Part shown: positions 6,029-11,388 of the stretch, one piece after another | Layout: the number at the start of each line of letters is the position of its first letter | How positions within the stretch are numbered: position 1 is the stretch's first letter | Source: Cupriavidus neocaledonicus | GTDB lineage: Bacteria > Pseudomonadota > Gammaproteobacteria > Burkholderiales > Burkholderiaceae | Reading direction: 5' to 3' | Assembly (NCBI RefSeq): GCF_000372525.1 | Contig: NZ_AQUR01000102.1 | Span: forward strand, 13,733-77,732 | Length of the DNA stretch: 64,000 bases | The notes under the pieces: model-generated | Databases searched by the model: none | Seen by the model: only the letters and a program-made list of their open reading frames with translations | What the model was told of the DNA's origin: nothing | Program-made: the position numbers and the translations under genes

Positions 6029-6046
6029 CCTGACCGATTGGTCAGG
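6029..6046 (+). promoter_or_regulatory. RutR-type operator (palindrome CCTGACC-GATT-GGTCAGG)
   Basis: A perfect 7-bp inverted repeat with a 4-bp spacer. Its core CTGACCGATTGGTCAG matches the known Escherichia coli RutR consensus TTGACCA-NN-TGGTCAA at most specified positions. It lies between the predicted promoter and the first gene of the cluster, which also encodes a RutR-like regulator. Repression relieved by uracil or thymine is the inferred behaviour. Confidence 0.75.
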
Positions 6047-6070
6047 ATTCCATCGGGAACCGGGGTTGCC

Positions 6071-7309
6071 ATGTCCGACCATATCGTCCTGACTTCGCAC
6101 GCGCGCCGCGACAAGCCGGCCGAGCCGATCCACTGGGGCGCCCCCACGGCGGCGGAGCGCGGACCGGTGATCGCCAGCCTGGGCAACCCGGCGCAGCGCA
6201 ATGTGATCGGCACCCACGCCGGCGCCTACGCCATCTACCGGGCGCTCGCGGTCGCCTCCGGCACGCTGCAGCGCGACCACCGTCCGGACCTGACCGACAC
6301 CGCGCCCGCCGAGGCCATCGGCCCGCATCCGCAGTGGGGCGATCCGGACAAGATCGTCTCGCTCGACCCGTGGGGGCACCTGGTCTCCACCGTCTTTGCC
6401 GACCGCATCGCCGCCGGCGTCGATATCCGCCCGACCATCGCCGTGACGCGCGCGCACATCAACATGCCAGAGCTGGTCTCGGCCATCGCCGCGGGCCGGC
6501 TCAAGCCCGACGGCGACCTGTTGCATGCCAATGGCGACGTGCGCGTGACCAAGGCGGCGGTCGACCCGGTGTGGTACCTGCCCGGCATGGCGGCCCGGTT
6601 CGGCATCAAGGAAAGCGTGCTGCGCCGCAGCCTGTTCGAGCAGACCGGCGGCATGTTCCCGGAACTGGTGACGCGGCCGGACCTGAAGGTCTTCTTGCCG
6701 CCGATCGGCGGCATGACGCTGTATTTCTTCGGCGATGTCAGCCAGCTGGGCAAGCCCGAGACCCGCGTGGCCTGCCGCGTGCACGATGAATGCAACGGAT
6801 CCGATGTGTTCGGGTCAGACATCTGTACCTGCCGGCCGTACCTGGCACACGGCATCGAGGTGTGCATCGAGATGGCGCAGCAGGGCGGCGTAGGGCTGGT
6901 GGTCTACAACCGCAAGGAGGGCCGCGCGCTGGGCGAGGTGACCAAGTTCCTGGTCTACAACGCCCGCAAGCGCCAGGCCGGCGGTGACCGCGCCGAGACT
7001 TATTTTGCCCGTACCGAATGCGTGGCGGGCGTGCAGGACATGCGTTTCCAGGAGCTGATGCCGGATGTGTTCCATTGGCTGGGCATCCGGCGCATCGACC
7101 GCTGGGCGTCGATGAGCAACATGAAGCACGGCGCGCTGGTGGCGCAGGGCATCGAGGTGGTCGAGCAGGTGGCGATCCCCGAGGCGCTGATTCCCGCCGA
7201 CGCGCGTGTCGAGATCGACGCCAAGGTGGCCGCCGGCTACTTCACGCACTACACGCCGCCGGATGCGAACGAACTGGCCCTGGCAAAGGGCAGGGGGTTG
7301 AACGAATGA
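6071..7309 (+). CDS. GTP cyclohydrolase II-like protein, URC1 type (uracil catabolism)
   Basis: The 412-residue protein is about twice the length of RibA. Its C-terminal half carries the GTP cyclohydrolase II fold, with the zinc triad conserved as C241, C252 and C254 in HDECNGSDVFGSDICTC and the NRKEGRALGE loop replacing RibA's RGHEGRGIG. The N-terminal ~200 residues are specific to the URC1 subgroup. In the yeast Lachancea kluyveri, URC1 belongs to a uracil-degradation route distinct from the reductive and Rut pathways, together with URC4 and a uracil phosphoribosyltransferase. Here a DUF1688 (URC4) gene overlaps it by ATGA and upp follows, giving the same gene set. The reaction is not established; action on a UMP-derived nucleotide is inference. 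The ATG at 6071 is preferred over a TTG at 6038 inside the operator. A normal ribA lies at 27257, so this copy is not the riboflavin enzyme. Confidence 0.85.
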   Translation: MSDHIVLTSHARRDKPAEPIHWGAPTAAERGPVIASLGNPAQRNVIGTHAGAYAIYRALAVASGTLQRDHRPDLTDTAPAEAIGPHPQWGDPDKIVSLDPWGHLVSTVFADRIAAGVDIRPTIAVTRAHINMPELVSAIAAGRLKPDGDLLHANGDVRVTKAAVDPVWYLPGMAARFGIKESVLRRSLFEQTGGMFPELVTRPDLKVFLPPIGGMTLYFFGDVSQLGKPETRVACRVHDECNGSDVFGSDICTCRPYLAHGIEVCIEMAQQGGVGLVVYNRKEGRALGEVTKFLVYNARKRQAGGDRAETYFARTECVAGVQDMRFQELMPDVFHWLGIRRIDRWASMSNMKHGALVAQGIEVVEQVAIPEALIPADARVEIDAKVAAGYFTHYTPPDANELALAKGRGLNE

Positions 7310-9379: not shown

Positions 9380-10059
9380 TGGACTCGCACGCCAGTCTTG
9401 CGCCGCCCTTGCGGGCGCCGCCGGCGCGTGCGGCGGCGGGCGGCCGCATCCGGCAGGAGAACCAGGCCATGATCCTGCGCGCGGCCGAGCACGTGTTTGC
9501 GCGGGCCGGGTTTGCCGGCGCCACCATGGCGGAGATCGCCATGCGCGCGGGCGTGCCCAAGTCGAACCTGCATTACTACTTCCGCACCAAGCAGGCGCTG
9601 TACCGCGCGGTGCTGGCGCACACGCTGCAGCTGTGGCTGTCGGAAGCCGACGTGATCCGCGCCGAGCTGCCGCCGCAGGTGGCGCTGGAGCAGTACATCC
9701 GCGCCAAGATGCGGCTGTCGGCCAGCCATCCGGATGCGTCGCGGGTATTCGCCAACGAGCTGCTGCACGGCGCGCCCGAGATCGGCGAGGTGCTGCGCCA
9801 TGCCCTGCGCGAACTGGTGTCGCGCAAGGCCGCGGTGGTGCAGCAGTGGATCGACCGCGGCCAGATGGCGCCGGTCGATCCGCAGCACCTGTTCTTCACC
9901 ATCTGGGCCGCCACGCAGACCTACGCGGACTTTGAATCGCAGGTCTGCGCGGTGCTGGGGATCAGCCGCTTGCAGCCGCAGGACTACGCGCATGCCACCG
10001 AGCACGTGGTGCTGATGCTGCTGCGCGGCTGCGGCCTGGCGCCGGTGCCGCTGGCCTGA
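9379..10059 (+). CDS. TetR-family regulator, RutR-like
   Basis: The 226-residue protein has an N-terminal TetR helix-turn-helix (about residues 27-75; GATMAEIAMRAGVPKSNLHYYF) after a flexible 20-residue leader. The ligand domain keeps features of RutR, the pyrimidine-responsive repressor, notably FFTIWAATQTYADFE near residue 175, where RutR has a very similar tract. Its start overlaps the upp stop. The matching palindrome at 6029-6046 ahead of the cluster is its likely target. Inferred role: repressor released by uracil or thymine. RutR in E. coli also acts on other pyrimidine and purine genes, so a wider regulon is possible. Confidence 0.82.
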   Translation: MDSHASLAPPLRAPPARAAAGGRIRQENQAMILRAAEHVFARAGFAGATMAEIAMRAGVPKSNLHYYFRTKQALYRAVLAHTLQLWLSEADVIRAELPPQVALEQYIRAKMRLSASHPDASRVFANELLHGAPEIGEVLRHALRELVSRKAAVVQQWIDRGQMAPVDPQHLFFTIWAATQTYADFESQVCAVLGISRLQPQDYAHATEHVVLMLLRGCGLAPVPLA

Positions 10060-10101
10060 GATTCCATACCGAACCCCATCCCGGATACCACGACACGACC
10101 C

Positions 10102-11388
10102 ATGCTCGACCTGATCCTGCGGCGTTGCAACCTGCCCGACGGGCGCACCGGCATCGACATCGGCATTGCCGACGGGCACATCGTCGCGGTCGAGCCGGCC
10201 CTGGCCGCGCATGCGGGCGAAGAGATCGATGCCGCCGGCCAGCTGGTGACGCCGCCGTTCGTCGACGCGCACTTCCATATGGACTCGACGCTGTCGTACG
10301 GGCTGCCGCGCGTGAACCAGTCGGGCACGCTGCTGGAAGGCATTGCGCTGTGGGGCGAGCTCAAGCCGTTGCTGACGCAGGAGGCCATCGTCGAACGCGC
10401 GCTTGCCTATTGCGACTGGGCCGTGGCACGCGGGCTGCTGGCGATCCGCTCGCATGTGGACGTGTGCGATCCGCGCCTGCTGGCGGTGGAGGCGCTGCTG
10501 CACGTGCGCGAACGCGTGCGGCCATACCTGGACCTGCAGCTGGTGGCATTCCCGCAGGACGGCGTGCTGCGCGCGCCCGGCGCGCTCGCCAACCTGAAGC
10601 GCGCGCTCGAGCTGGGGGTCGACGTGGTCGGCGGCATTCCGCATTTCGAGCGCACCATGGCGCAGGGGGCCGAGTCGGTGCGGCTGCTGTGCGAGCTGGC
10701 GGCGCAGCGCGGCCTGCGCGTCGACATGCATTGCGACGAAAGCGACGATCCGCTGTCGCGCCATATCGAGACGCTGGCCAGCGAAACCGTGCGCCTGGGC
10801 CTGCAGGGCAGGGTGGCGGGATCGCACCTGACCTCGATGCATTCGATGGACAACTACTACGTGTCCAAGCTGATCCCGCTGGTGCGCGAGGCCGGCGTCG
10901 CGGCGATCGCCAATCCGCTGATCAACATCACGCTGCAGGGGCGGCACGATACGTACCCCCGCCGCCGCGGCATGACGCGCGTGCCCGAGCTGATGGCAGC
11001 CGGCGTGCCGGTGGCGTTCGGCCACGATTGCGTGATGGACCCGTGGTACGGCCTGGGCTCCGGCGACATGCTGGAAGTGGCGCACATGGGCCTGCACGTG
11101 GCGCAGATGACCGGGCAGGAGGCGATGCGCGCCTGCTTCGACGCGGTCACCGCCACGCCGGCGCGCATCCTCGGGCTGGAGGGCTATGGCCTGGCGCCGG
11201 GCTGCCGCGCCGACCTGGTGCTGCTGCAGGCGCGCGATCCGGTCGAGGCGATCCGGCTGCGTGCCACGCGGCTGCGCGTGCTGCGGGCCGGCAAGACCAT
11301 CGCCACCATGCCGGCGGCGACCGCGGCGCTGGCGCTGCCGGGCCGCCCGGCGCAGGTGGATTTTTGGCGCGGCGGCGGTGCGACATAG
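10102..11388 (+). CDS. codA: Cytosine deaminase
   Basis: The 428-residue amidohydrolase-superfamily enzyme converts cytosine to uracil and ammonia; E. coli CodA has 427 residues. Metal and catalytic residues are in place: H57 and H59 in the first strand motif (DAHFHMDS), H210 and E213 in MHCDE, and D309 in FGHDCVMDPW, equivalent to E. coli D313. Family tracts NQSGTLLEGI and NPLINITLQGRHDTYP are retained. It starts 42 bp after the regulator gene on the same strand, with no promoter visible between them, and no cytosine permease adjoins it. In this setting it widens the uracil pathway to cytosine. Isocytosine or creatinine deaminase paralogues are less likely given the close match. Confidence 0.9.
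   Translation: MLDLILRRCNLPDGRTGIDIGIADGHIVAVEPALAAHAGEEIDAAGQLVTPPFVDAHFHMDSTLSYGLPRVNQSGTLLEGIALWGELKPLLTQEAIVERALAYCDWAVARGLLAIRSHVDVCDPRLLAVEALLHVRERVRPYLDLQLVAFPQDGVLRAPGALANLKRALELGVDVVGGIPHFERTMAQGAESVRLLCELAAQRGLRVDMHCDESDDPLSRHIETLASETVRLGLQGRVAGSHLTSMHSMDNYYVSKLIPLVREAGVAAIANPLINITLQGRHDTYPRRRGMTRVPELMAAGVPVAFGHDCVMDPWYGLGSGDMLEVAHMGLHVAQMTGQEAMRACFDAVTATPARILGLEGYGLAPGCRADLVLLQARDPVEAIRLRATRLRVLRAGKTIATMPAATAALALPGRPAQVDFWRGGGAT

Follow-up and report, generated by a model that had tools for sequence, protein, structure and literature searches.

The window analysed here, a stretch of 64,000 nucleotides of Cupriavidus neocaledonicus DNA, carries five genes that very probably form an URC operon with a RutR-like repressor, which would allow cytosine and uracil to be used as a nitrogen source through a nucleotide. 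What is new here is the tie of one of the encoded proteins, URC4, to Qng1: it is probable, with slightly less assurance, that URC4/DUF1688 and Qng1/DUF2419 constitute a single superfamily whose members have a DNA-glycosylase-like fold and act as N-ribosyl hydrolases of 5'-nucleotides, and whose URC4 branch cuts urea off 5-phosphoribosylurea via Lys301 and Glu332. The system as such is not new, because the unit corresponds to the known URC uracil pathway, and its description in an earlier note on this DNA as the best candidate for an incompletely described system has been abandoned. The URC pathway has borne its name since 2008, and the linkage of URC1, URC4 and uracil phosphoribosyltransferase (UPRT) in bacteria was reportedly described by Andersen in the same year. 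On the other hand, Qng1 and URC4/DUF1688 were not named together in the literature searched, a search in which most subscription journals were outside the scope and an earlier published link is therefore possible.

Organization and conservation of the gene cluster

The genes for URC1, DUF1688/URC4, UPRT, a RutR-like TetR regulator and cytosine deaminase follow one another on the + strand and span positions 6071-11388, and family profiles support each member of this same-strand set in the order in which the earlier note had given it. The gene of URC1, a UTP-cyclohydrolase-type enzyme of the GTP cyclohydrolase II superfamily (6071..7309, + strand), shares positions 7306-7309 with that of URC4 (7306..8601, + strand), and the UPRT gene (8657..9379, + strand, with an alternative start at ATG 8684) shares position 9379 with that of the TetR-family repressor (9379..10059, + strand). 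The partial overlap of the genes that had been described is thus correct for these two junctions but not for the other two, where URC4 and UPRT are separated by 55 bp, and the repressor and cytosine deaminase (10102..11388, + strand) by 42 bp. UPRT reaches 270 bits with TIGR01091 (cut-off 208) and also exceeds the cut-off of PF14681, while the cytosine deaminase, a CodA-type amidohydrolase, belongs to NF005748 (829 bits, cut-off 438). Translation of URC1 most likely starts at ATG 6071 rather than at TTG 6038; the latter sits within a palindrome (CCTGACCGATTGGTCAGG, 6029..6046, no strand assigned, 25-42 bp upstream of the ATG) that is better read as an operator. With respect to sigma-70 promoters, positions 5800-12000 hold no consensus match upstream of URC1, the only one being found at 11417, downstream of the unit.

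Among the 398 genomes of the phylum that were searched, URC1 adjoins URC4 in all of the 26 that bear URC4, and UPRT lies beside URC1/URC4 in 23 of these; for the loci of named genomes (n = 80), URC1 is present in 77 and UPRT in 78. The clustering of URC1 with URC4, seen in genomes (26/26) and named loci (77/80) alike, is far above chance.

A dedicated transporter inside the operon was also considered, and none is present in the window unit. A Bmp/ABC transporter lies between the regulator and codA in a Cupriavidus (L032) and a Caldimonas (L041) locus, and the Bmp family occurs in 14/95 loci (Pfam was run on a pair of these transporter genes, taken from loci L037 and L046); the best Bmp relative in the genome of the window is 37% identical and encoded elsewhere. 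That other Cupriavidus operons carry a Bmp/ABC transporter which the window unit lacks counts, with respect to uptake, against the preferred reading.

URC1 as a probable UTP cyclohydrolase

URC1 is assigned to NF005536 (796 bits, cut-off 403) and is composed of the domains PF12471 and PF00925 (GTP_CH_N and GCHII-like). The six positions C54/C65/C67, Y105, D126 and R128 of E. coli GCHII align with C241/C252/C254, Y296, D323 and R325 of URC1, and these are invariant in 103/103 copies. Its nearest solved structures are 7ej3 and 7eev (E 3e-189, aligned over residues 3-410 of 412), which we take to be those of the UTP cyclohydrolase paper by Zhang et al. and which bear the PDB name GTP cyclohydrolase II; URC1 and this enzyme agree in the zinc and catalytic positions that were aligned. 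The name of NF005536 and the retention of the GCHII zinc and catalytic positions would also suit a true GTP cyclohydrolase II, within a cluster of a salvage or riboflavin type instead of a catabolic one, yet this is extremely unlikely: URC1 obtains 42 bits with the riboflavin RibA model TIGR00505 (cut-off 206), it is almost always found beside URC4 and UPRT, and Zhang et al. (ACS Catal 2021) reportedly described a URC enzyme as a UTP cyclohydrolase. In addition, a computational mechanism for the pathway enzyme has been published, as indicated where it is cited (PCCP 2022, cited in PMC9499338). The NCBIfam label "GTP cyclohydrolase II" looks misleading for URC1, and the earlier view that the chemistry of both URC1 and URC4 is unsettled no longer applies to URC1, given its publication as a UTP cyclohydrolase, while for URC4 it accords with the literature searched.

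Relationship of URC4 to Qng1

URC4 matches PF07958 (DUF1688) at 462.5 bits against a cut-off of 25, and its AlphaFold model has a pLDDT of 90.8. In a Foldseek search with this model, ranks 1-11 were all taken by DUF2419/Qng1, with E values from 2.8e-10 (7u07) to 7.9e-8 and the next match at 0.24, and a second model, of a cyanobacterial URC4 for which the underlying alignment takes in the window protein, retrieved the same 11 Qng1/DUF2419 chains (next match 0.35). Profile comparison of URC4 with Qng1 by hhalign gave E 7.4e-7 and a score of 55, as against 25.7 or less for 50 column shuffles and 21.5 for the reversed control; the best E among 35 other families of flank ORFs was 0.064, and the controls overall gave E 0.015 or worse. 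The Pfam family Q_salvage (PF10343) matches 12/42 URC4s at the lax limit of E 10, most of them weakly and the best (1.5e-5) just above the curated cut-off; when ten URC4s, the one of the window excluded, were scanned singly, six matched, three of them with E <0.01, and one (L077) reached 25.2 bits against the curated cut-off of 25. The window URC4 gave no match to PF10343 even at E 10, nor was Qng1 found when the PDB was searched by sequence with profiles or proteins of DUF1688. A search for DUF2419 over the phylum returned 0/398 genomes, with the positive controls equally silent. Judged by its sequence, the window URC4 is a member of a family related to Q_salvage PF10343 and not of Q_salvage itself, and the results from Foldseek, Pfam and hhalign point to an N-ribosyl hydrolase.

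In the hhalign alignment, Qng1 residues Lys199 and Asp231, for which the mutant PDB entries K199C and D231N exist, are equivalent to K301 (codon 8206..8208, + strand) and E332 (codon 8299..8301, + strand) of URC4. Both are invariant in 106/106 URC4 copies, that of the window included, such that the lysine is kept and the aspartate replaced by glutamate throughout; owing to this replacement the chemistry of URC4 could differ. The glutamate also favours an alternative that casts URC4 as an enzyme of amidohydrolase type, acting either by splitting the ureido group or on the opened ring ahead of sugar removal, its likeness to Qng1 reflecting fold ancestry only, as does a RutB-like hydrolase of the isochorismatase family that adjoins URC4 in L080 (98 bits to RutB, cut-off 378) and implies that other opened-ring steps may exist. 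This alternative is nevertheless improbable, in view of the constancy of the Lys/Glu pair at the Qng1 positions and of work in yeast, which describes URC4 as converting ribosylurea to urea (PMC7530994). As a predicted N-ribosyl hydrolase, URC4 has in common with Qng1, the queuosine-5'-monophosphate hydrolase that releases a rare tRNA base from its sugar, the fold, part of the sequence profile and the positions of the lysine and the acid, while it represents a separate family (PF07958, not PF10343), is longer, carries Glu for Asp and should have 5-phosphoribosylurea rather than queuosine as its substrate.

Regulation of the operon

The regulator is made up of TetR_N and TetR_C_3, with E. coli RutR (3loc/4jyk, E 2.4e-45) as its closest solved relative, and it is referred to as RutR-like since its 201 bits with the RutR equivalog TIGR03613 are below the cut-off of 368. 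The motif TGACC-N4-GGTCA precedes URC1 in 21/22 loci with a RutR-like gene, the regulator being present without the exact palindrome in L047, and in 0/70 loci without such a gene; TGACCNNNNGGTCA matches once in the window, at the 6029-6046 palindrome, with 0.05 matches expected. This palindrome is the predicted operator of the RutR-like regulator, from which uracil would probably release the repressor. The link between regulator and URC genes may already have been predicted in print, for example via the RutR regulons that are listed for 68 genomes in 13 groups (Leyn 2016, PMC5343134). Like the window unit, the E. coli rut operon starts from uracil, is preceded by a palindrome of comparable length and has a regulator of the RutR type; in contrast, the genome of the window lacks RutA and RutB over cut-off, and the ring is proposed to be opened in a nucleotide here and in the free base by the rut system.

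Other routes of uracil degradation and the fate of urea

In the genome of the window, RutA scores 80 bits (cut-off 498), RutB 55 bits (cut-off 378) and NF006183, presumably PreA, a dihydropyrimidine dehydrogenase, 43 bits (cut-off 335). A rut or reductive (Pyd/Pre) pathway was consequently rejected for this genome, and the previous statement that Rut and reductive genes are absent holds genome-wide at these family cut-offs. RutB is over cut-off in 4/26 URC genomes (G167, G256, G259 and G289, the genome of the window not being among them), which indicates that URC is not always the sole route. A search with PF09663, which we take to be the family that includes barbiturases, gave no match, and no positive control responded.

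The alpha subunit of urease is encoded in the genome of the window (976 bits, cut-off 680), and urease is present in 23/26 URC genomes compared with 143/398 overall; this co-occurrence was rejected as functional proof, and the excess is not independent evidence, because the distribution of urease follows family lines. Among the matches listed, outside of which lie 100 genomes without a match, G259 provides the one informative case, as the sole genome of family f44 (n = 10) with urease over cut-off, and its ureC is 1.9 kb from URC1 (L129); ureC is found within the fetched flanks of 3/95 loci. Urea carboxylase was rejected as the route for urea in these bacteria, as its single-chain model is over cut-off in 0/26 URC genomes, including that of the window. 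Neither urease nor the single-chain urea carboxylase is over cut-off in 3/26 URC genomes (G119, G256 and G373), in which urea could therefore be a nitrogen dead end. Such genomes are in keeping with a unit devoted mainly to pyrimidine salvage from cytosine via uracil to UMP, for which CodA and UPRT suffice and in which ring breakdown would be minor or detoxifying, but this possibility is very unlikely, considering that no salvage role is known for URC1 or URC4 and that RutR-like control and the linked ureC favour nitrogen scavenging.

Proposed pathway

It is proposed that CodA would deaminate cytosine to uracil, that UPRT would convert uracil to UMP and that housekeeping kinases would convert UMP to UTP. 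URC1, taken as a UTP cyclohydrolase in line with its published assignment, would then hydrolyse the uracil ring of UTP, with loss of pyrophosphate and, through the ring bonds that we infer to be cut, release of a three-carbon piece, leaving 5-phosphoribosylurea; the three-carbon piece would be malonate semialdehyde or, once reduced, 3-hydroxypropionate. URC4, as a Qng1-type N-ribosyl hydrolase with the K301/E332 pair, would cleave 5-phosphoribosylurea to urea and ribose-5-phosphate, and the urease encoded elsewhere in the genome would convert urea to ammonia. The URC pathway of Lachancea kluyveri, of which the yeast route is drawn from print, and the bacterial URC1-URC4-UPRT clusters likewise combine URC1, URC4 and UPRT with a urea-splitting enzyme encoded in the genome; the window unit additionally encodes a cytosine deaminase, as well as a RutR-like regulator for which an operator is predicted, and in comparison with yeast, urease replaces urea amidolyase. 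Gene content and linkage support the original reading of the unit as an URC-type system that proceeds via a nucleotide intermediate, extends to cytosine through codA and has a RutR-like regulator.

Conclusions

URC4 is still listed in Pfam as a "protein of unknown function" (DUF1688), and the tie to Qng1, a hydrolase of solved structure, supplies a concrete reaction, a substrate and two residues, making its function readily testable, while a predicted operator and a likely inducer can now be named for the operon. If true, this reading of URC4 would fill the main gap between uracil and urea in bacteria and fungi, would explain why the URC pathway takes a nucleotide route, and would join the salvage of a tRNA base and the breakdown of uracil in a single enzyme superfamily.

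Operon layout and conservation

As the earlier note had claimed, the five genes lie on one strand, gene calls and family profiles placing them in window 6071-11388, all on the + strand: URC1 (6071-7309), URC4/DUF1688 (7306-8601), uracil phosphoribosyltransferase (UPRT; 8657-9379), a RutR-like TetR regulator (9379-10059) and cytosine deaminase (CodA; 10102-11388). URC1 and URC4 overlap by 4 bases and UPRT and the regulator gene by 1 base, while gaps of 55 bp and 42 bp separate URC4 from UPRT and the regulator gene from that for cytosine deaminase. Position 6029, where that note starts the unit, begins a palindrome and not a gene; the URC1 ATG is at 6071, and likeness to other URC1 proteins starts 3-4 residues downstream. 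A tRNA-Leu (11485-11571, + strand) is the next feature past the operon, followed by a long ORF (11719-13521, - strand). Elsewhere, window 15-4186 encodes a VCBS/RTX-repeat protein that carries a type I secretion target signal, then a TolC-type outer membrane protein. The host genome comprises 6.77 Mb in 107 contigs; among named genomes, Cupriavidus matches best, supplying the first 12 of 80 loci.

PF07958, the URC4 family, is present in 26 of 398 genomes sampled from the phylum, the host genome counted; URC1 adjoins URC4 in all 26, and UPRT lies within the 1.5 kb flanks in 23, one of the other three (L010) being cut by a contig end. Of the loci from named genomes, the best 80 of 578 confirmed form a sample biased towards the window's relatives, with some contigs ending early: 77 have URC1, 78 have UPRT and 21 a RutR-like gene, and a CodA with 70% identity or more occurs in 23. 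In this sample the wider core is URC1-URC4-UPRT, present in cyanobacteria too, to which mainly betaproteobacteria add CodA and the RutR-like gene.

A Bmp/ABC transporter lies between regulator and codA in a Cupriavidus (L032) and a Caldimonas (L041) locus, and near some clusters are found a pyrimidine nucleoside phosphorylase (L048), a PNP/UDP-phosphorylase (L087) and a Metalloenzyme-family gene, phosphopentomutase-like by eye (L091), as expected for nucleoside use. URC1 was not found within the fetched flanks of three Rhizobiales/Enterovirga loci (L078, L079, L097), where URC4 and UPRT are present. UPRT is followed in two of them by a protein of about 300 aa (L078:11056-11970; L079:10915-11808), by eye like the L106:10851 family (9 of 95 loci) and 2-keto-3-deoxygalactonokinase. 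In an alphaproteobacterial MAG, a RutB-like isochorismatase-family hydrolase (L080:10248-10964; 98 bits to RutB, below the cut-off of 378) adjoins URC4 at the usual place of UPRT, possibly a variant route. A ureidoglycolate-lyase-family gene (Pfam; L103:17089-17583) lies near a cyanobacterial URC cluster, the family occurring in 5 of 95 loci.

Regulation

The palindrome CCTGACCGATTGGTCAGG (6029-6046) is a predicted operator and holds the one occurrence of TGACC-N4-GGTCA in the window (0.05 expected). Of 95 loci given, three had no URC1 match and were dropped; the other 92 were scored from -250 to +60 of URC1, with RutR-like genes counted at a minimum of 40% identity: the motif occurs in 21 of 22 loci with such a gene, in 0 of 70 without, and in 5 of 18,400 shuffled upstream regions. 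Because many loci are close relatives, they are less independent than the Fisher value of 8e-20 implies; the link also holds in Azoarcus (L049), Caldimonas (L041) and Roseomonas (L105), the last with its regulator gene placed divergently, and the exception is L047, which has a RutR-like gene without the motif. The motif is similar to the E. coli RutR box, TTGACCAnnTGGTCAA, which the L041 site fits exactly. E. coli RutR is also the regulator's best solved relative, and PMC10891134 gives 4JYK as the complex of E. coli RutR with uracil. For 13 proteobacterial groups, RutR regulons have been published (PMC5343134), among which this operon may already figure. Since the regulator scores 201 bits, below the RutR equivalog cut-off of 368, it is named RutR-like.

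URC1 as a probable UTP cyclohydrolase

The NCBIfam NF005536 label "GTP cyclohydrolase II" for window 6071-7309 is probably misleading. In E. coli GTP cyclohydrolase II, C54, C65 and C67 bind zinc, and Y105, D126 and R128 are catalytic; with positions counted by hand, they align with URC1 C241, C252 and C254, and Y296, D323 and R325, all six invariant in 103 of 103 URC1 copies. The kept arginine, triphosphate-handling in GTP cyclohydrolase II, fits URC1 with UTP as substrate and a 5'-monophosphate as product. The closest solved relatives, 7ej3 and 7eev, are deposited in the PDB as GTP cyclohydrolase II, and are presumably the structures that Zhang et al. (ACS Catal 2021) reported for UTP cyclohydrolase. 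That paper is cited for the URC pathway in PMC12507026, and PMC9499338 cites computational work on UTP cyclohydrolase.

URC4 and its link to Qng1

Four PDB sequence searches with URC4 gave no convincing chain (E 1, none, E 0.31, none). An AlphaFold2 model from 42 sequences (that of the window plus 41 from the 80 named loci) reached pLDDT 90.8 and pTM 0.90, and in Foldseek against the PDB its ranks 1-11 were all DUF2419/Qng1, bacterial and human (E 2.8e-10 to 7.9e-8), with rank 12 at E 0.24. A second model, of a Rivularia URC4 from an 11-sequence alignment that included the window's sequence, retrieved the identical 11 chains (E 9.8e-10 to 3.3e-8), with rank 12 at 0.35; an 8-oxoguanine DNA glycosylase came 14th (E 0.8).

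A Qng1 profile was built from two sequences, the Sphaerobacter chain and a viral-contig homologue. URC4 matched it by hhalign with a score of 55.1 over 185 columns (E 7.4e-7, probability 92%); a smaller URC4 set gave E 5.3e-6. As controls, URC1 against Qng1 gave E 0.26, the reversed profile scored 21.5, 50 column shuffles scored at most 25.7 with E no better than 0.015, and 35 flank ORF families gave a best E of 0.064 (a thirty-sixth, DUF1688 itself, was set apart). Weaker evidence may be drawn from Pfam Q_salvage, which at a lax limit of E 10 matched 12 of 42 URC4 proteins (best 1.5e-5) and did not match the window's own; six of 10 scanned singly matched in collinear stretches (E 1.5e-5, 4.5e-4, 0.006, 0.03, 0.05 and 0.08), one passing the curated cut-off by 0.2 bits. 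A 296 kb IMG/VR contig classed as viral carries, at L144:1698-2654, a queuosine salvage gene for a DUF2419/Q_salvage protein (PF10343, 138 bits).

Among the PDB entries are Qng1 K199C and a complex of Qng1 D231N with queuosine-5'-monophosphate, and this numbering was confirmed on the chain sequences. In the profile alignment, URC4 FHKLxQ corresponds to Qng1 FYKRAQ, so that K301 equals K199, and LTGLPEYR to LTAFADYK, so that E332 equals D231; the URC4 acid is always Glu, whereas that of Qng1 is Asp. None of the 106 copies, that of the window among them, departs from K301, E332 or R368, and E366 is kept in 98 of 106. The literature describes a 5'-mononucleotide as the primary substrate of Qng1 (PMC11592518) and yeast URC4 as converting ribosylurea to urea (PMC7530994); together with the conserved Lys/Glu pair, this suggests that URC4 hydrolyses the N-glycosidic bond of 5-phosphoribosylurea.

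Fate of the nitrogen and the three-carbon piece

The host genome has urease alpha over the cut-off (976 bits) and no urea carboxylase over it. Urease is present in 23 of 26 URC genomes versus 143 of 398 overall, an excess that tracks family lines, and ureC lies within the fetched flanks of 3 of 95 loci; in G259, the only urease-positive (over cut-off) among ten f44-family genomes listed, it starts 1.9 kb from URC1. Three of the 26 URC genomes checked (G119, G256, G373) have neither urease nor urea carboxylase over the cut-off, which counts against urea-splitting as nitrogen release; RutB is found in G256 and three other URC genomes.

As to carbon, we infer the ring bonds cut by URC1, and the three-carbon piece may leave as malonate semialdehyde. 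Yeast is reported to form 3-hydroxypropionate and ribosylurea via uncharacterised steps (PMC7530994). C. necator H16 has genes homologous to those for 3-hydroxypropionate dehydrogenase and semialdehyde dehydrogenase (PMC5431877); such enzymes would be a plausible sink for the three-carbon piece.

Conclusion

The operon is a real, conserved catabolic unit of a known pathway, to which are added a predicted operator and, more importantly, the structural and sequence link for DUF1688, from which this family is predicted to be an N-ribosyl hydrolase with named residues.
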